Origin: Pelosinus propionicus DSM 13327
GTDB lineage: Bacteria; Bacillota; Negativicutes; DSM-13327
Reading direction: 5' to 3'
Assembly: GCF_900114615.1 (NCBI RefSeq)
Contig: NZ_FOTS01000054.1
Span: 1 to 35,860 of the forward strand
Length of the DNA: 35,860 bases
Shown: positions 8,139-35,860 of the stretch, one piece after another
Position numbering within the stretch: the stretch's first letter is position 1
Layout of the letters: every line of letters starts with the position of its first letter
Translations under genes and position numbers: made by a program
The notes under the pieces: model-generated
Database searches by the model: none
Told to the model about the DNA's origin: nothing
What the model saw: only the letters and a program-made list of their open reading frames with translations

Positions 8139-9095
8139 TTACTTATTTACCACATTAATTGGATTACCTTCCATGAAGACTGCAAGATTATTCACGGCAA
8201 TATCCATTAGACGTTTGCGGCTTTCTCTTGGAGCCCAGGAAATATGAGGAGTAATGATGCAATTCTTTGCCTTAAGCAAAGGATTATTCCCTTGGATCGG
8301 CTCGGTAGACACAACATCCAAGCCTGCAGCATACACCTTGCCGGAATTTAATGCGTCAGCTAAATCCGCTTCATGAATCAGCGGTCCTCTGGAATTATTG
8401 ATAATGATAACGCCGTCTTTCATCTTCCCGATATTCTCTTTATTAATAATGCCTTCTGTTGCCGGGAATAATGGACAATGCAAAGAAATAACATCTGACT
8501 GAGCAAATAACTCATCCAGAGAAACATATTCGGCAATTGCAGAGCCAGAATCATTTTGATACTCATCATATGCGATCACTTTCATGCCCAGTGCTTTTGC
8601 AATGCGGCCTGTTCCTTGACCAATACGGCCAAAACCAATGATCCCCATTGTTTTTCCTGCCAATTCAATTAACGGATAATCCCAAAAGCACCAATCGGCA
8701 TTCTTTTCCCAGCGTCCTTCGTAAACAGCCTGACTATGATGCCCCACATGATGGCAAACTTCCAATAGCAGCGCAATAGCAAACTGCGCAACTGCATCGG
8801 TTCCATATGTAGGAATATTGCAAACTGCAATTCCTTTTTCTTTAGCCGCATGTACATCCACCACATTATATCCAGTTGCCAGAACTCCAATAAATCGAAT
8901 GCTAGGGCACGCTTCCAGTGTTGCTTTATCAATGGGTGTCTTATTGACAATAACGGCTTCGGCATTACCGATGCGCTCAATAATTTGTTCACGAGGAGTT
9001 CGATCATAAACGGTAAGTTCCCCTAATTTTTCAAAGCCATCCCAGCTTAAATCTCCAGGATTTTCAGTATAACCATCTAAAATTACAATTTTCAT
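8139..9095 (-). CDS. D-2-hydroxyacid dehydrogenase (glycerate dehydrogenase-like)
   Basis: A 318-residue NAD(P)-dependent D-isomer-specific 2-hydroxyacid dehydrogenase. The Rossmann motif GFGRIGQG starts at 154, and the catalytic Arg236 (NNSRG), Glu265 (LDVVSTEP) and His284 (TPHISW) are all present. The length and the H-S-W ending suit the glycerate/hydroxypyruvate reductase subgroup. It is the last gene of the seven-gene minus-strand cluster, 117 bases after the aldolase with a long hairpin between. It could reduce the 2-oxo acid released by the aldolase or oxidise an incoming 2-hydroxyacid. Confidence 0.85.
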   Translation of the reverse strand: MKIVILDGYTENPGDLSWDGFEKLGELTVYDRTPREQIIERIGNAEAVIVNKTPIDKATLEACPSIRFIGVLATGYNVVDVHAAKEKGIAVCNIPTYGTDAVAQFAIALLLEVCHHVGHHSQAVYEGRWEKNADWCFWDYPLIELAGKTMGIIGFGRIGQGTGRIAKALGMKVIAYDEYQNDSGSAIAEYVSLDELFAQSDVISLHCPLFPATEGIINKENIGKMKDGVIIINNSRGPLIHEADLADALNSGKVYAAGLDVVSTEPIQGNNPLLKAKNCIITPHISWAPRESRKRLMDIAVNNLAVFMEGNPINVVNK

Positions 9096-9128
9096 ATGCT
9101 GCTCCTTTTTTAATAAAGTGTAGCTTTA

Positions 9129-9192
9129 TTTGAAAACAGCATAACTGAAGTCGGATCTATTTCATTTTCCGTCCAGTTACGCTGTTTTCAAA
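9129..9192. repeat. 19-bp imperfect hairpin between aldolase and dehydrogenase genes
   Basis: TTTGAAAACAGCATAACTG (9129-9147) pairs with 9174-9192 with one mismatch and a 26-base loop. It lies inside the cluster, between two same-strand genes. On the minus strand no U tract follows, so it is more likely an mRNA-stability or partial-termination structure than a full terminator. Confidence 0.75.
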
Positions 9193-9212
9193 CTTTTTTC
9201 GTTTATTTTGTA

Positions 9213-10037
9213 TTACGCTTTTTTAGCATCGCTTTCCAAATCATGAAGCATTTCAACCGCTTCTTTCACACCAAGATTTTCATGAATTACGCTGCGCAGT
9301 GTTTTAACCAGGGAAGTGATATCTTTATATTCCCAGACAAATCTTCCGAAAGTAACCCCGCCAACACCGACATCTAATGCTTCACGAGTCATTTTAATAT
9401 ATTCTTCAGCGGTATTTCCAACATCTCCGCCTTGAATTACAACACGAGCTGGGCAAGATTGTACTACTTTTTCCATGGTTTTAGGATCTCCGGTATATGT
9501 AGTTTTTATAATATCTACACCCAGTTCCGCACCGGCTCTGACACAATATGCAATGTTTTCCCATTTCGTTCGATCTTCTACAGAAACGGATTCTCCTTTA
9601 GGATACATATGTCCAATCAGCGGCATCCCAGCAGCCATACATTGTTTGGACATCAAACCGATATCGCGAAGTTGTTCTGCCTGATGAACCCCAAGCATCA
9701 TAGCTCCCACAGATACAGCATCCGCACCCATTCTTACGCCTTCTTCTACGTCGCCGAAACATACATCATACGTAGGCTGTACTGGTGAATAGCTGGAGCA
9801 TTTTAACAATATGGAAACTTTGCCCGCATGCTTAGGAAGGCATAGTTCTGCAATACCTTTCGTTACAGTAATAGCATCAGGACCGCCTGCAACAATTTTA
9901 TCAATCGTATCCTGAATGGGAACCAAGCCTTGCATAATACCTCTTGAAATCGAATGGTCAACGGTAATTGCCATCATTTTATTACTTTTTGGGTTAACGA
10001 GCCTGCTCATACGTACTGCTTTTCCTAACATAGCCAT
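9213..10037 (-). CDS. Class I aldolase, DhnA/FbaB (LsrF-like) family
   Basis: A 274-residue TIM-barrel aldolase of the DhnA/DeoC-LacD group. The first strand AITVDHS (23-29) holds the conserved Asp, Lys178 in DIIKTTYTG is the Schiff-base lysine, and GGD (203-205) with GGVTFGRFVW (226-235) forms the phosphate-binding loop. I chose ATG 10037 because AAAGGGGA lies 9 bases upstream; an ATG at 10058 adds seven residues without a site. The family includes archaeal-type FBP aldolase, LsrF and YihT; which sugar phosphate is split here is unknown. An FGGY kinase upstream could supply the phosphorylated ketose. Confidence 0.82.
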   Translation of the reverse strand: MAMLGKAVRMSRLVNPKSNKMMAITVDHSISRGIMQGLVPIQDTIDKIVAGGPDAITVTKGIAELCLPKHAGKVSILLKCSSYSPVQPTYDVCFGDVEEGVRMGADAVSVGAMMLGVHQAEQLRDIGLMSKQCMAAGMPLIGHMYPKGESVSVEDRTKWENIAYCVRAGAELGVDIIKTTYTGDPKTMEKVVQSCPARVVIQGGDVGNTAEEYIKMTREALDVGVGGVTFGRFVWEYKDITSLVKTLRSVIHENLGVKEAVEMLHDLESDAKKA

Positions 10038-17718: not shown

Positions 17719-18168
17719 TCAAAAATGATGATCGATCATCTGCTGTGCTTTTTCTAAAAACACACTGACTGCTTCTAACTCTTCTGCGCTTAAGCCCTCC
17801 AAATGCGCAAAGATATAATCATCTTTCTCCAAGTGAAATGTATTATGTGCCTGATATGCGGCCTCTCCCCGCTCCGTCAGGTAGACTTGAATCCGCTTCT
17901 TATCTAAAGGGTCTATCACTTTGCGCACATAGCCGCTCTTTTCGATTTTCAAAACACTTTTCGAAACAACAGCACGGGTAACACCAAAATATCGTGCAAT
18001 TTCAGAAATAAACATGCCTGGCCGATCGCCAATTGCCCGAATCATGTGAATCTCCCCTCGATACAGAACGATCCCATCACCAAAATCCAGCTGTTTCATT
18101 TTGCTGTTCGCAATGGTTTCAATTAATCGCATAAACTTACTCATCGCTGCATAAGATTTTTTCTTCAT
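17719..18168 (-). CDS. MarR-family transcriptional regulator
   Basis: A 149-residue winged-helix regulator: HTH FISEIARYFGVTRAVVSKSV, wing KVIDPLDKKRIQVYLTERGE. The frame is open to a GTG at 18216, but that would overlap the promoter; ATG 18168 is preferred. Only a poor Shine-Dalgarno precedes it and the -10 element is six bases away, so the transcript may be leaderless. It is divergent from the cobalamin operon and co-directional with the helicase. Confidence 0.82.
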   Translation of the reverse strand: MKKKSYAAMSKFMRLIETIANSKMKQLDFGDGIVLYRGEIHMIRAIGDRPGMFISEIARYFGVTRAVVSKSVLKIEKSGYVRKVIDPLDKKRIQVYLTERGEAAYQAHNTFHLEKDDYIFAHLEGLSAEELEAVSVFLEKAQQMIDHHF

Positions 18169-18203: not shown

Positions 18204-18267
18204 CTGCTGCTTCCACATGATAAAAAACCTAAGAAAGATCTTTTACTTTGTAGAGCATAGCATCTCA

Positions 18268-18296
18268 TTGACAAACAGATTATGATTTGTTACGAT
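18268..18296 (+). promoter_or_regulatory. Promoter of the cobalamin-riboswitch operon
   Basis: TTGACA (18268-18273), a 17-base spacer, then TACGAT (18291-18296). It starts transcription just before the riboswitch. Confidence 0.75.
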
Positions 18297-18317
18297 GAGA
18301 ATGAATTTCATACTGTT

Positions 18318-18475
18318 GAGATAGGTGCCCTTAGGGGCTTAATAGGGAAGTCCGGTGAAATACCGGCGCGGTCCCGCCACTGTAATGAGGAGCAAACCCG
18401 AAAAATACCACTGGAGCGTAAGCTCTGGGAAGGTTTGGGCAAGCGATGATCCAGAGCCAGGATAACTGCCTTTCT
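18318..18475 (+). promoter_or_regulatory. Cobalamin (AdoCbl-type) riboswitch
   Basis: The conserved core is present: GGGAAGTCCGGTGAAATACC followed by GGCGCGGTCCCGCCACTGTA, a peripheral stem, and the B12-box segment AGCCAGGATAACTGCC (18455-18470). It lies between the promoter and a hairpin terminator in the leader of the methyltransferase-TonB-S-component operon. Bound cobalamin should switch these genes off. The edges are approximate. Confidence 0.93.
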
Positions 18476-18520
18476 AGCAATCACCGTTTTATGAACCTAC
18501 GAAGGATAGGGAGGGGATTT

Positions 18521-18532
18521 ATGAGAAAATGA
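18521..18532 (+). CDS. Three-codon leader ORF (MRK) in the riboswitch leader
   Basis: ATGAGAAAATGA is preceded at close spacing by a very purine-rich AGGGAGGGG (18508-18516). It lies after the aptamer and before the terminator. The AAATGA/TCATTT palindrome overlaps its end. It could be a translated leader that affects terminator folding, or the G-rich run may be part of an anti-structure. Low certainty. Confidence 0.3.
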   Translation: MRK

Positions 18533-18545
18533 TTTCATTTCATCC

Positions 18546-18570
18546 CGGCTTGGTAGAAGCTGTTTTTTTT
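18546..18570 (+). terminator. Expression-platform terminator of the riboswitch
   Basis: CGGCTT (18546-18551) pairs with AAGCTG (18557-18562, one G-U) around a 5-base loop and is followed by eight T residues. It stands 51 bases before the first gene, as expected for transcriptional control. Confidence 0.75.
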
Positions 18571-18621
18571 TATTCTTTTTGTATGCTAGGCATACAAACA
18601 AATTAGAGAGAGGTGTTTATC

Positions 18622-19653
18622 ATGGAATATCCTACCCATAGTCCCAGAAAATTTCTTGGAATGCTGCAGCAATATAGAGAAACACAGCTCTTATTCGCGG
18701 GCATTTCCCTCAAGGTATTTGATTTTCTAAAACACGATACATCGGCAGAAAAAATCGCGTCCCTGACTGGATACGATGAAAGAAACCTTACACTCTTTCT
18801 AAACAGTCTGGCAGCCATCGGTCTACTCGAAAAAAGCAATCACCAATATCGAAATACTCCAGAAGCAGAGCTGTACCTTAATCAAAGCAGTTCTTCTTAC
18901 CTAGGAGGATATCTGACCTTCTGGAACCAGATGACAGGACTCGACCAAGTGGAAGAACTGGTACGCCTCGGACCCGATCCAGCCATTCTAAAGCAGAACG
19001 AAGGCAAAGAGCTCTTTGATTTCTGCAAGCTGGCACGCTTAACGGCAGTTGAGGTTCGTACAGGCCGTGTTCAATCCTTTTTGCGCGCTGCCGCACAATT
19101 AGCAGAGCCTGCTGCCCCTCTTCGGATATTAGATCTTGGCGGAGGATCAGGAATGATGGCCATTGAATTTGTCCGCCAGTTCCCTTTGGCATCCGGCGTC
19201 ATTTTTGAGCAGCCTGGAGTAGCCGATGTTCCTGAAGAATTGGTAGCAGAGGAGCATCTGGAGCATCGACTAACCATCATGCGCGGCGACTTTATGACAG
19301 ATCCCATCGGTAACAATTACGATCTGATTATTGCATCGGGAATCTTAGACTTTGCCAGCGCAAACCTAAAAGAGCTGACCACGAAAATGGCACAGGCTCT
19401 CACCCCTTCCGGTTATCTTTATCTGGTCAGCCACAAAGTAAGCGACGACTATATCGCGCCAAAAAAATCCATTGTCGGCTGGCTGTCAAGTCATCTTGCT
19501 GGCCTTGACATCTTACAAACCAGATCGAATATTGAGCTTGCCCTTACCAGTGCAGGTTTTCGGAAAATGGAAATCAAGCCACTAGATGGTGCGATCCAAA
19601 GTCTAATGGGCGAATTTTATACAAAAAGACATATTACAGGAGGCATTTCGTGA
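18622..19653 (+). CDS. SAM-dependent O-methyltransferase (Methyltransf_2 type)
   Basis: A 343-residue methyltransferase. Residues 1-90 form a winged-helix dimerisation domain (DFLKHDTSAEKIASLTGYDE), then a Rossmann domain with the SAM motif ILDLGGGSG (169-177) and later LYLVSHKV. This is the architecture of plant-type and antibiotic O-methyltransferases. The start is ATG 18622 with GAGAGAGG 8 bases upstream; an upstream in-frame GTG at 18613 lies in that site. As first gene under a cobalamin riboswitch it could methylate a cobamide lower-ligand precursor, in the manner of BzaC, but this is inference. It overlaps the TonB receptor by 4 bases. Confidence 0.82.
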   Translation: MEYPTHSPRKFLGMLQQYRETQLLFAGISLKVFDFLKHDTSAEKIASLTGYDERNLTLFLNSLAAIGLLEKSNHQYRNTPEAELYLNQSSSSYLGGYLTFWNQMTGLDQVEELVRLGPDPAILKQNEGKELFDFCKLARLTAVEVRTGRVQSFLRAAAQLAEPAAPLRILDLGGGSGMMAIEFVRQFPLASGVIFEQPGVADVPEELVAEEHLEHRLTIMRGDFMTDPIGNNYDLIIASGILDFASANLKELTTKMAQALTPSGYLYLVSHKVSDDYIAPKKSIVGWLSSHLAGLDILQTRSNIELALTSAGFRKMEIKPLDGAIQSLMGEFYTKRHITGGIS

Positions 19654-21590
19654 ATAAAAAAATATTACTCCTTCTCGTCCCTTTGCTCTTATCCACTGGA
19701 AAAAGTTATGCTGAAGCAACAGATTCCTATGAATTTGACATGCCGGAAGTCGTCGTTACCGCAACAAAAACGGCAATGAACATTCAAGATGTTCCTGCTG
19801 CCGTTGAAGTGATCACCGCAGAAGACATCAAATCCTACGGAGCCCATGTCCTAAAGGATGTGATCGGATCTGCAGCCGGGGTTAGCATCATGAGAGTAAA
19901 CGGGCGAGAAGCGCTTTCCATTCGAGGATTTGACGCCCGGTACTCAATGATCTTGATCGACGGAAAACGAATTCCTGCTGAAACAGAACCTCTTTACGAG
20001 CTGGATCGAATCTCCCTGGAAAATGTAGAACGCATTGAAATCGTTCGCGGGCCGGTAACATCCCTATACGGTGCCGATGCCCTTGGCGGCGTAGTGAATA
20101 TCATTACAAAATCCGCATCCAAACAAGCCTTTACACTGCGACTCAATCAAGGTGTTCTGTCTCGTACAGGTGATAGAAACGGGCGTTATTCCTTTACCTA
20201 TGACTCCGGGAAACAAGAGAAATTGGGCATGACTCTTTCTGGCTCTTATTCTGATTCGGATGCATCCCTTAAGAGTAATGGAACGACCTATTCGCCTTTC
20301 GGCGAACGAAAGAATATCAATGCCCGCTTTGACTACTCTCCTACGGACAAAGAAAAACTTACCTTTACCGCCTCCCGTATGGACGAAGACACGCGCGAAT
20401 ATGCGATCCTGCAAACCGCTATGGGGAGCGTTCGCACCGATGTTCGTGATAATAATGACCGCAGTCAATATGCTCTCAGCTATACGAAAGACCTGTCTGA
20501 TGGTGAACTCTATTTCAATGCCTACCGCTCTGTTTGGAATAAATACAATGACACGGTTAACCGGACAAGCGGTCAATACATAAACTCGGTCTATGGCTAT
20601 ACCACCATATCCGGTCTGGAAGGCCGTATTAGTAAAAAAGTATCCAACGATCATCTGCTAACCTTCGGCGGTGAATTTCGCCCCGAATTGTTCCGCGGCA
20701 CGGGAATTCAGACAGGACAAGGAACCTTCACCAAAGTATTTCATGGCAAAGTCTATGAAGGCTCTGAAGTCAAAACCAACTACTCTGCCGTCTATCTGCA
20801 GGACCAATGGACCGTATCGCCGAAACTCCTTGCCGTAGCATCGGCTCGCTATGACGACAGCAACAAGTTTGAAAGCAATGTGAGTCCGAAAGTCGGCTTG
20901 ACCTATACTCCCGAACCCGGCTGGCGCGTGAAGTTTAACACCGGGCAAGGTTTCCGGGTTCCCTCACCCAATCAATTGTACCTAAAACTGAATGTCACCA
21001 GAAACGGAAAGTTGGTCAGTCTCCTTGGAAATCCTTCCTTACAACCGGAAGACTCCACCTTCTATGATCTATCTGTTGAACGGGATGTGGGCAATGTGAA
21101 AAGCAAGCTGACCTTCTTCTCCAGCAAAATCACAGACATGATCGATGAGGCTTGGGTCGACTCTGCTACAGTCCAATACCAGAATATTAACCGTGCAACG
21201 ATTCAGGGAATCGAAGGCGAAATCTCTGTACCATTATCTGACCGCGTATCCTGGTCCGGCACTTATACCTATCTGGATGCTGTCAATGACTTGACGAATA
21301 CCCGGCTCTACAACCGTGCTCGTCACAAGCTCTCTTCCCGTGTTACTTATCGCCAGTCAGAAACGCTGACGGCAAACCTATGGGCGGATTCCTATCTGCA
21401 TTATTGGTTCCAGCCTTCTGCCAATGTATCAACCAATACATCCTATACCCTGTGGAATGTGAATGTAGAAAAACAGCTTACCGAAGATCAAACGATCTTG
21501 CTCGGCATTGACAATCTCTTCAATCACAAAGACGATGCCCTTTCCTTGCCTGGAACCTTTATTCACGTTGACGTAACGATGAAATTATAA
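19650..21590 (+). CDS. TonB-dependent receptor, BtuB-like
   Basis: A 646-residue outer-membrane receptor. Signal peptide 1-21 (cut after SYA), TonB box around PEVVVTATK (32-40), plug domain with SIRGFDARYSMILIDG and EIVRGPVTSLYGADALGG, then a 22-strand-type barrel ending VDVTMKL. It takes up cobamides or related corrinoids across the outer membrane, as its size, BtuB-like plug and riboswitch control suggest. The start is GTG 19650, overlapping the previous stop (GTGA), with AGGAGG 6 bases upstream. The last residue is Leu rather than the usual Phe. Confidence 0.9.
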   Translation: MNKKILLLLVPLLLSTGKSYAEATDSYEFDMPEVVVTATKTAMNIQDVPAAVEVITAEDIKSYGAHVLKDVIGSAAGVSIMRVNGREALSIRGFDARYSMILIDGKRIPAETEPLYELDRISLENVERIEIVRGPVTSLYGADALGGVVNIITKSASKQAFTLRLNQGVLSRTGDRNGRYSFTYDSGKQEKLGMTLSGSYSDSDASLKSNGTTYSPFGERKNINARFDYSPTDKEKLTFTASRMDEDTREYAILQTAMGSVRTDVRDNNDRSQYALSYTKDLSDGELYFNAYRSVWNKYNDTVNRTSGQYINSVYGYTTISGLEGRISKKVSNDHLLTFGGEFRPELFRGTGIQTGQGTFTKVFHGKVYEGSEVKTNYSAVYLQDQWTVSPKLLAVASARYDDSNKFESNVSPKVGLTYTPEPGWRVKFNTGQGFRVPSPNQLYLKLNVTRNGKLVSLLGNPSLQPEDSTFYDLSVERDVGNVKSKLTFFSSKITDMIDEAWVDSATVQYQNINRATIQGIEGEISVPLSDRVSWSGTYTYLDAVNDLTNTRLYNRARHKLSSRVTYRQSETLTANLWADSYLHYWFQPSANVSTNTSYTLWNVNVEKQLTEDQTILLGIDNLFNHKDDALSLPGTFIHVDVTMKL

Positions 21591-21613
21591 AAATAAAATA
21601 GCGAGGTAAAACC

Positions 21614-22129
21614 ATGCATCAGAAAGTTGTGCGAACGGCCCTGCTGCTAGCCTTAATGATTGTGCTGCAGTCGCTTCGGCTTCTAGTCCCCGTTCCGCCG
21701 TTTATATCTATGTTTGTAGTGGGCAGCGCGATCAATGCCTGCCTCCTGATCGCATTGGAAGTCACAGGATCAAAAGCAGCTCTCGGCATGGCTGTTCTGG
21801 CTCCCATTGTAGCGTTTTTTCAGCAAGCCCTGCCCCTACCCGTCTTTATTCTGCCCGTGGCGTTCACCAACATGGCATATGTGCTGATTTACCAGATGAC
21901 CTTATCCTACAATCGATGGCTGGCGATCCTCCTTTCCTCCATCGGCAGAATGCTGATTCTTTATTTTTCAAGCTCATGGGCCTTTTCCATTGTCGCTCTT
22001 CCAGAAAAGCAGGCGACGATATTAAAAGCCCTCATGAGCTGGCCACAGCTAGTCACTGGAATCATTGGCGGAATCCTTTGTATGCTCCTGTTAAAACGAT
22101 TAGCAAGTACAATAAATCGATCAGCCTAA
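21614..22129 (+). CDS. ECF transporter S component (vitamin/corrinoid precursor uptake)
   Basis: A 171-residue integral membrane protein with five to six predicted helices (TALLLALMIVLQSLRLLV, PFISMFVVGSAINACLLIAL, GMAVLAPIVAFFQQALPLPV and others), the usual S-component size. The substrate-binding subunit works with a shared EcfAAT module, which is not in this window. The cobalamin riboswitch points to cobalamin, cobinamide or a lower-ligand precursor; it may be CblT-like. Its RBS GAGG lies 24 bases after the receptor stop. Confidence 0.75.
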   Translation: MHQKVVRTALLLALMIVLQSLRLLVPVPPFISMFVVGSAINACLLIALEVTGSKAALGMAVLAPIVAFFQQALPLPVFILPVAFTNMAYVLIYQMTLSYNRWLAILLSSIGRMLILYFSSSWAFSIVALPEKQATILKALMSWPQLVTGIIGGILCMLLLKRLASTINRSA

Positions 22130-22134
22130 AATAT

Positions 22135-22178
22135 AAGAATCCTGCATCACTTCACGTAAGTAATGCAGGATTCTTTTT
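22135..22178 (+). terminator. Terminator of the cobalamin operon, copy A of a repeated hairpin
   Basis: AAGAATCCTGCAT (22135-22147) pairs with ATGCAGGATTCTT (22163-22175), followed by TTT. A near-identical copy lies at 24134-24172. Confidence 0.85.
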
Positions 22179-35540: not shown

Positions 35541-35860
35541 GTCGAGTAGAGGCAGACCTCACGATCTAGCCCCCCTCACGGAACCGGACGTGCCCTATTA
35601 AGGCATCCGGCTCTTCATAATAGCATTCACCTATGTTTAGCCATATATATTGATATAAATTCTTGCCCTAGCAAGTGGAAATCGTTTCTCAAGTTTTGCA
35701 AAGCCTTCCCAAGTCAGACTCTTCTTCTGACTTCTACGGTTGAGCACTTCAAACATTTTACGGCGTATTCGATAGCCAAACGCACGTATTGCGTTACTGT
35801 TGTCGGTCACTCCATAGTAGTGGTAGTGCCCAATTAACTTGGCATTTACCTCTTTGATTA
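35541..35860 (-). mobile_element. 3' end of a group II intron
   Basis: Downstream of the reverse-transcriptase stop, the minus strand carries the domain V hairpin (35581-35613, GAGCCGGATGC...GCACGTCCGGTTC) and a domain VI region (GTGAGGGGGGCTAGATC), ending CTACTCGAC at 35541, the usual bacterial 3' terminus. The 5' part lies beyond the window. Confidence 0.85.
35637..35860 (-). CDS. ltrA: Group II intron reverse transcriptase/maturase, C-terminal part
   Basis: 74 residues of the maturase (X/GIIM) C-terminus: EVNAKLIGHYHYYGVTDNSN, RIRRKMFEVLNRRSQKKSLT and the end RIYINIYG. No HNH endonuclease tail follows the maturase domain. The start lies beyond the window edge. It assists intron splicing and retrohoming. 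Confidence 0.9.
   Translation of the reverse strand, partial: IKEVNAKLIGHYHYYGVTDNSNAIRAFGYRIRRKMFEVLNRRSQKKSLTWEGFAKLEKRFPLARARIYINIYG

Follow-up and report, generated by a model that had tools for sequence, protein, structure and literature searches.

Organization of the locus

The window, i.e. the whole stretch of DNA analysed here, comprises 35,860 nt of Pelosinus propionicus DSM 13327 (contig NZ_FOTS01000054.1, positions 1 to 35,860 of the forward strand). It harbors a three-gene operon behind a cobalamin riboswitch and a divergent regulator gene, with the elements arranged as follows.

17719-18168, minus strand: MarR-family regulator gene, divergent from the operon (Pfam MarR_2 domain recognized at 40.2 bits; the reading frame could start at 18216)
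18268-18296, plus strand: promoter (TTGACA, 17-base spacer, TACGAT, TG before the -10 element; 10 of 12 consensus matches)
18306-18487, plus strand: cobalamin riboswitch aptamer (RF00174)
18546-18571, plus strand: riboswitch terminator (short hairpin at 18546-18562 followed by a T run)
18579-18597, plus strand: predicted MarR operator, a 19-base palindrome past the riboswitch terminator and 24 bases before the methyltransferase start codon
18622-19653, plus strand: SAM-dependent methyltransferase of the Methyltransf_2/Dimerisation type, denoted MT (Pfam, fold, alignments A1 and A3)
19650-21590, plus strand: TonB-dependent outer-membrane receptor
21614-22129, plus strand: ECF transporter S component, from its predicted fold
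22135-22175, no strand assigned: inverted repeat past the last gene, likely the operon terminator (18-pair stem, listed for the minus strand only)

The aptamer scores 119.7 bits (cut-off 31.5), the highest value among the 21 RF00174 riboswitches of the genome. Since the scan returned 7 promoter-like sites with 8.8 expected by chance, the assignment of the promoter rests on its position; counts were near chance in most scans, and scan matches alone were not taken as proof. The promoter stretch is kept among Pelosinus relatives. The folding energy of the terminator stretch is unremarkable (z -0.58), and a stem with a T run is seen repeatedly at this position in relatives. The first-pass annotation of this DNA, which described a cobalamin riboswitch with its own promoter and terminator ahead of a methyltransferase, a receptor and an S component, is thus borne out in its overall observation.

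The methyltransferase

MT belongs to the Methyltransf_2/Dimerisation family, as had been proposed, with both Pfam models above their cut-offs (48.6 bits for Methyltransf_2 and 46.9 bits for Dimerisation), a fold matching 2r3s (Z 26.7, 3.4 Å for 314 residues) and a glycine-rich SAM motif conserved in the MT alignment. The O-methyltransferases of this family employ a catalytic histidine, which is missing in some further members. In MT, Asp243 is located opposite a histidine of 3mcz, the best solved match; this aspartate is invariant in all nine orthologues and present in 10 of the 11 sequences of alignment A3. The best NCBIfam model, BchU (TIGR02716), reaches 34.3 bits with a cut-off of 276.1.

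The reported 4-base overlap between MT and the receptor gene is present in the window (19650-19653) but is not general: judged by the longest open reading frames, the two genes are separated by 43 bases in JBW45 and by 24 bases in G114, and in G275 an overlap of 4 bases is possible if an internal start is used.

The importer genes

The receptor possesses a TonB plug (Pfam, 85 bits) and barrel (159 bits), both above cut-off. Its previous designation as BtuB-like proved too specific, because the NCBIfam models TonB-hemin (209.5 bits) and TonB-B12 (170.5 bits, TIGR01779, cut-off 599.7) both remain below their cut-offs and because among solved structures the colicin I receptor CirA, by its NCBIfam name a catecholate receptor, outscores BtuB (165 versus 93 bits). 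Models and solved matches thus favor heme or catecholate receptors over B12 receptors.

These matches bear on a metallophore reading, in which the importer would take up cobalt or iron on a catechol- or phenol-type chelator, MarR would sense the free chelator, and MT would methylate it and thereby stop metal rebinding. MarR proteins often bind phenolics, the MT family is rich in O-methyltransferases, CirA heads the solved matches of the receptor, and versions of the module behind a Fur box as well as behind a riboswitch occur. However, MT carries an aspartate where its best solved match has histidine, and we know of no siderophore among the large cargos of ECF transporters. Those named in the parts of the literature consulted are cobalamin and heme (PMC5997447; PMC7299338). 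We regard this reading as doubtful.

The protein encoded by the third gene has no Pfam or NCBIfam match itself, and PF12822 (ECF_trnsprt) matches 4 of the 19 members of its family at E up to 1 (best 5.7e-11). As the family profile gave no match up to E 1 among sequences of solved structures, a fold search was needed. In this search, the predicted model (pLDDT 88.4) superposes on 3p5n (Z 16.9, 2.7 Å for 155 residues) and TmRibU (Z 16.6), and the 20 best-ranked rows, with 3p5n and 4huq_S among them, are ECF substrate subunits; Foldseek returned no match for the model at E up to 0.001. The predicted structure accordingly has the S-component fold, in agreement with the previous assignment. An ECF module is available in the genome, which contains three T-component genes, one of which (contig C56) lies with two ATPase genes beside ribosomal genes, as judged by eye.

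Matches to the S-component family are found in 172 of 300 class genomes. The S components of the trio carry arginine (7/7) at a position where the 12 other aligned family members all have lysine. A cobalamin link for the whole family was rejected, since none of the 11 loci that carry paralogues or solitary copies has a cobalamin riboswitch.

Genomic neighborhoods

Thirteen genomes of the class Negativicutes have an MT orthologue, and in 10 of them the genes for MT, receptor and S component lie side by side. Neither receptor nor S gene nor riboswitch accompanies MT in G004, G027 and G009; in G004 MarR is its only companion, and in G009 MT is frameshifted. The trees of MT and receptor agree broadly.

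Outside the class, MT is found beside BtuC/FecCD-type ABC importers in two genomes, behind a cobalamin riboswitch twice and a perfect Fur box once. In G714 a promoter with an operator on its -10 element is followed by the cobalamin riboswitch, binding protein, permease, ATPase, MarR and MT, with two further operators before MT. The first copy in G681 consists of cobalamin riboswitch, binding protein, MT, permease and ATPase, the second of binding protein, permease, ATPase, MT and MarR with a perfect Fur box and an operator upstream. The permeases score best to BtuC, below cut-off, and the binding proteins allow no clear assignment (IsdE, for heme, below cut-off; solved matches including nickel, iron and unnamed binding proteins). 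Furthermore, G126 contains a receptor 70% identical to that of the window beside two operators, an MptD-type ECF S-T-A set preceded by a perfect Fur box, and a CydD-like ABC protein. The unexpected methyltransferase of the import operon is therefore a real and recurring partner of importers, within and outside the class.

Among 13 loci of MT or the receptor, three (L218, L234, L236) have a perfect Fur box, as does one of 17 other loci (L071, away from MT). L236 encodes a relative of 27% identity with no importer adjoining by eye and the perfect Fur box upstream. The counts do not include weaker matches in the phylum, namely L237-L242 from five genomes, with 25-31% identity; these show no MarR orthologue, operator within 2 mismatches, perfect Fur box or cobalamin riboswitch, and L239-L242 are located, by eye, near ABC importers of other kinds. 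That all importer-near MT relatives are cobalamin-linked was ruled out by eight loci of distant relatives (L081-L088) with no cobalamin riboswitch.

Alternatively, MarR and MT might form an independent detoxification pair, with receptor and S gene added to it through an accident of gene order. This would suit G004, with MT and MarR and no importer, and G027, with MT and no importer. It is nevertheless unlikely, as two unrelated importer types (TonB plus ECF; ABC) adjoin MT across the phylum, the operator also accompanies a lone receptor gene in G126, and the two gene trees broadly agree.

The predicted MarR operator

The first-pass annotation omitted the palindrome at 18579-18597 and the divergent MarR gene. 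The palindrome is the only perfect site in the genome; at up to 3 mismatches 0.11 matches are expected in the window by chance, and 2 of 100 shuffles reach 2. MarR orthologues (E up to 1e-20) occur in 10 of 380 class genomes, in all ten at the MT locus. Of the 13 genomes that have an MT orthologue, 10 thus have the MarR gene at this locus; in G126 it adjoins the trio at its far end. Exact operator matches are present in eight genomes, seven of which carry the MarR orthologue (Fisher p 4e-12, uncorrected for relatedness). With one mismatch permitted, 45 of 380 genomes contain operator-like sites, a large part of which is background.

At up to 2 mismatches the operator accompanies 10 of 12 MT loci with a MarR orthologue and none of the five MT loci where it is missing (L236 was counted only among the latter), and all matches in these 17 loci sit at MT or its importer. 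The conserved palindrome thus tracks MarR. The aptamer core is gone from two Pelosinus genomes, JBW45 (G024) and G051, both of which retain the operator.

As RNA, the palindrome can form a hairpin (z -4.5) just ahead of the ribosome-binding site and might therefore act on translation rather than as a MarR site. This is quite improbable, as copies lie on promoter elements in G004 and G714 and the five MT loci with no MarR orthologue have no copy at up to 2 mismatches. At the MT locus of G004 no riboswitch was found, and two operator copies cover the -35 and -10 elements of a promoter with 11 of 12 matches, which marks the palindrome as a DNA site there. From these sequence comparisons, it appears to serve the divergent MarR as its operator. 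Metal sensing by MarR, considered on account of a histidine motif, was dropped, since the motif pattern is shared by the solved fatty-acid regulator with which MarR was aligned.

MT and lower-ligand synthesis

It had been suggested that MT methylates a lower-ligand precursor in the manner of BzaC, with the importer bringing in the base or a corrinoid. BzaC methylates a 5-hydroxybenzimidazole lower ligand; both enzymes are SAM methyltransferases considered in a cobamide context. In favor of this proposal, a cobalamin riboswitch lies ahead of MT, and the genome contains tandem CobT homologues like ArsAB as well as, by eye, cobamide synthesis genes. BzaD was found above cut-off in none of 150 class genomes, including G000 and ten other MT-bearing ones, with weak sub-cut-off matches in 146. 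This absence is weak evidence and by itself not excluding, because the control genomes likewise gave no positive and bzaD is missing from Moorella-type bzaAB-cobT-bzaC operons. No ThiC-type cysteine motif was found in the 511 kb searched, which covered the loci of MT, of riboswitches and of cobamide genes. In the loci read, MT was not seen beside cobT or bza genes; instead it travels with MarR and importers, one module copy lies behind a Fur box, and Asp243 replaces the histidine. Passages of a review place genuine bzaC genes in bza-cobT operons (PMC8123684), a precedent for bzaC among cobamide genes and at the same time a context not seen for MT in the loci read. The BzaC-like proposal is consequently very improbable. 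The phenolic-cobamide background invoked with it is supported by the tandem CobT homologues and by the same passages, which list Pelosinus fermentans among predicted phenolyl-cobamide makers (PMC8123684).

Proposed mechanism

A riboswitch and a dedicated repressor seem to control one importer-MT operon in Pelosinus and some other Bacillota. Transcription would start near 18296. With ample cobamide the riboswitch would stop it before the MT gene; at low cobamide RNA polymerase would read on and meet MarR at 18579-18597, where it would be blocked until the MarR ligand arrives. The TonB receptor and the S component, the latter via the shared ECF module of the genome, would then import a scarce metal-bearing compound. 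The cargo is probably a corrinoid-like metal compound, the leading candidates being corrinoids and related tetrapyrroles. In the cytoplasm, MT may chemically modify the imported compound or a ligand set free from it. For such a doubly gated operon, in which riboswitch and MarR gate both importer and MT, the chances are about even. A MarR-gated module for import and processing, plugged into either cobamide or iron control and with MT acting on the cargo, is the best reading.

More specifically, and only tentatively, MT could be an anaerobic metallo-tetrapyrrole processor that methylates imported heme or corrinoid, or the metal-free ligand, and thereby frees or reroutes the metal; MarR would sense the macrocycle, and one MT-MarR module would be placed under Fur to serve iron supply and under the cobalamin riboswitch to serve the supply of cobalt or corrinoid. 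If the double gate is right, cobamide shortage alone would be insufficient, and a second signal, read by MarR as a protein roadblock just past the riboswitch terminator, would be required, making the control region a two-key gate and a simple natural two-input device. The occurrence of MT beside two unrelated importer types, behind cobalamin riboswitches or a Fur box, points to an uncharacterised step in the handling of imported metal compounds, and the operon offers an entry point to the cargo of an S-component family that is widespread and still an orphan. No description of such an MT-importer pairing was found in the open-licence PubMed Central literature, judged mostly by its listed entries.

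Comparison with known systems

BchU, the bacteriochlorophyllide C-20 methyltransferase, is a tetrapyrrole enzyme with the same fold as MT; MT, however, scores far below the TIGR02716 cut-off, and no chlorophyll genes are seen near it by eye. With the cobalamin-riboswitch import operons (btuB, btuFCD) the operon shares riboswitch, promoter, terminator, receptor or ABC importer and the expected repression by cobamide. In contrast to these, the first or an internal gene encodes a methyltransferase, a second and probably protein-based gate follows the terminator, and the receptor of the window lies below the B12 cut-off. Among the heme ECF systems (LhaSTA; siaD-H of S. pyogenes), as far as described in the parts of PMC7299338 and PMC6593403 consulted, the sia genes resemble in kind the G126 arrangement of receptor, ECF S-T-A set, CydD-like ABC protein and Fur box, whereas the S component of the window belongs to another family, would use a shared module, and is preceded by a cobalamin riboswitch instead of Fur control.

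The riboswitch operon and its setting

The riboswitch operon of methyltransferase, receptor and S component pointed out in the first-pass annotation proved real on re-check, and the identification of the riboswitch, the genes and the fold is secure. The gene divergent from the operon is a regulator of the MarR family that the annotation had missed.

17719-18168, minus strand: MarR regulator gene
18306-18487, plus strand: cobalamin riboswitch (RF00174), terminator behind
18579-18597: 19-base palindrome, predicted MarR operator
18622-19653, plus strand: methyltransferase gene
19650-21590, plus strand: TonB receptor gene
21614-22129, plus strand: ECF S component gene

The contig that makes up the window belongs to a 5.4 Mb genome whose closest named relatives are Pelosinus fermentans. 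This genome holds 21 cobalamin riboswitches above cut-off, several of which, judged by eye, precede cobamide synthesis and salvage genes and TonB receptors; the setting is thus cobamide-rich and the trio is one among several import loci. Elsewhere in the genome, on C69:1-16000, cobalamin riboswitches enclose two nitrogenase-like genes together with genes resembling CbiK, CbiZ and CobO, and one such riboswitch is followed immediately by another nitrogenase-like gene, the third there (all by eye). A 113-bit cobalamin riboswitch at C27:1792-1973 has its next picked gene on the opposite strand, and three consecutive ones at C70:12566-13631 are followed at some distance by very large genes, one of them, by eye, with sequence resembling a TonB receptor. 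A group II intron domain matches window positions 35541-35615 (43.2 bits).

Models of the methyltransferase and the S component

The methyltransferase model (pLDDT 82.2) depicts a classic two-domain methyltransferase fold, with Asp243 aligned to a histidine of 3mcz that we take to be the usual catalytic one. Since the fold search returned many matches (Z about 24-27), the substrate cannot be named from the fold alone. The third gene product is, judging from its model, clearly an ECF S component, with 3p5n (presumably RibU) and TmRibU as nearest solved structures. At one position in helix 5 all seven trio S components carry arginine, whereas the 12 other aligned family members all carry lysine, a replacement which suggests an altered ligand.

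Paralogous receptor and S component genes are found at five loci (L119, in the window's genome on C50, and L120, L121, L155 and L156) beside an iron-sulfur protein weakly resembling FeFe hydrogenases and a gene that by eye resembles FmdE. At L119, L155 and L156 an ABC protein comes next, similar to BacA by eye; the L119 receptor is divided between two frames. No cobalamin riboswitch was found at L119-L121.

Distribution in the Negativicutes

Methyltransferase orthologues (identity at least 44%) occur in 13 of 300 class genomes: five of the window's genus (G000, the window's own; G024, P. fermentans JBW45; G051; G061; G066) and G114, G034, G027, G126, G275, G004, G009 and G238. A search for the same trio across the class, as had been proposed, recovered receptor and S genes behind the methyltransferase in ten of them, the exceptions being G027, G009 and G004. 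The gene is frameshifted in G009 and apparently disrupted in the metagenome assembly G066. In the methyltransferase tree G027 is adjacent to G034, so its lone gene may be a derived loss.

The riboswitch is intact at seven loci (G000, G061, G066, G114, G034, G126, G275), has lost its core at two (JBW45, G051) and was not detected at four (G238, G027, G009, G004). In the JBW45 and G051 leaders the aptamer core is deleted, but the promoter, the stem of the terminator with its T run and the MarR operator are still there: nature has here separated the operon from cobamide control. Decayed methyltransferase copies are seen in the window's genome (C110:7270-7389) and in G114, there as a 116-residue fragment behind a second cobalamin riboswitch.

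The MarR regulator and its predicted operator

MarR orthologues (E 1e-20 or better) are present in ten of 380 class genomes, every one at a methyltransferase locus; the gene adjoins the methyltransferase in nine, and in G126 it stands at the trio's other end. Leader comparison places the 19-base palindrome between terminator and methyltransferase start in the window, JBW45, two Pelosinus metagenome assemblies, G051, G114 and G126. Its exact pattern occurs once in the window's genome and in eight of the 380 genomes, seven of which encode the regulator (p = 4e-12, a value that overstates independence because five of the ten MarR genomes belong to one genus). With one mismatch allowed, operator-like sites appear in 45 of 380 genomes, many of them background. 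In G004, where no riboswitch was found at the locus, MarR follows the methyltransferase gene, and two operator copies lie on the -35 and -10 elements of a promoter with 11 of 12 matches.

Among 17 methyltransferase loci examined closely, the operator (at most two mismatches) is present at ten of the 12 with MarR (five of the window's genus, G114, G126, G004, and G714 and L234 of G681, both outside the class) and at none of the five without (G034, G027, G009, and L235 and L236 of G681); no equally good match lies elsewhere within these loci. G275 and G238 possess MarR, but their palindromes differ. The palindrome is very probably the MarR operator. As the promoter scan found no promoter-like site between terminator and methyltransferase in the window, the simplest reading is that MarR on its operator would act as a roadblock to polymerase arriving from the upstream promoter.

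Methyltransferase modules outside the class

Of 398 phylum genomes searched by profile (E 1e-30), eight matched, the window's included. In G714 (methyltransferase and MarR both 47% identical to the window's), a promoter whose -10 carries the operator and a cobalamin riboswitch (107.9 bits) precede genes for binding protein, permease, ATPase, MarR and methyltransferase, with two further operators ahead of the last. G681 has three copies. At L235 (35%), a cobalamin riboswitch (110.6 bits) is followed by binding protein, methyltransferase, permease and ATPase. At L234 (42%, MarR 47%), promoter, perfect Fur box and operator precede binding protein, permease, ATPase, methyltransferase and MarR, and no cobalamin riboswitch was found. 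L236 (8238 and 8440-9462) holds a distant methyltransferase (27%); a perfect Fur box lies ahead of it, and no importer is seen by eye next to it. The names of the importer proteins in G714 and G681 were assigned by eye; for the permeases the top score is to BtuC, below cut-off, and the binding proteins match ambiguously. The five remaining genomes, with weaker matches, show no MarR, operator, Fur box or riboswitch, and some of their loci lie near other ABC importers (by eye). Perfect Fur boxes, scanned with what we take to be the consensus, occur at three of 13 methyltransferase or receptor loci, against a chance expectation below 0.001 per locus.

Taken with the class loci, the methyltransferase accompanies importers of two unrelated designs behind two metal-linked controls, and it probably acts together with an import system. 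More distant relatives (25-32% identity; L081-L086) lie among mostly FecCD-type ABC importer, radical SAM and FmdE-like genes, in some cases also TonB receptor genes (all by eye), with no cobalamin riboswitch there.

Substrate and cargo

The first-pass reading of a BzaC-like enzyme acting on a cobamide lower-ligand precursor is not borne out, as no context of benzimidazole-route genes was seen in the loci examined and one copy of the module stands behind a Fur box; the distinction from BzaC is drawn from gene context. Phenolic cobamides, to which that reading appealed, are likely in Pelosinus, but ArsAB makes them, and no finding here links the methyltransferase to them. That the enzyme modifies the imported cargo, or a ligand freed from it, is an evenly balanced proposition. 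The cargo itself may be, with rather less assurance, a corrinoid or tetrapyrrole and not another chelate.

A second operator pair in G126 (L218, C5:219000-233000) stands ahead of a receptor that shares 70% identity with the window's and is the nearest to it of the receptors compared from beyond the genus; G126's own trio receptor reaches 55%. Next to the receptor at L218 come an S component of the MptD family (96.1 bits against a cut-off of 76.45), T and A genes and a gene for a CydD-like ABC protein. The A gene and a divergent regulator gene have a perfect Fur box between them, and no cobalamin riboswitch was found at the locus. An ECF heme importer is proven in Staphylococcus lugdunensis (PMC7299338). 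Heme-like tetrapyrroles are therefore retained as candidate cargo beside corrinoids, the kinds of genes at L218 being the same as in the S. pyogenes heme operon, siaD to siaH (PMC6593403).
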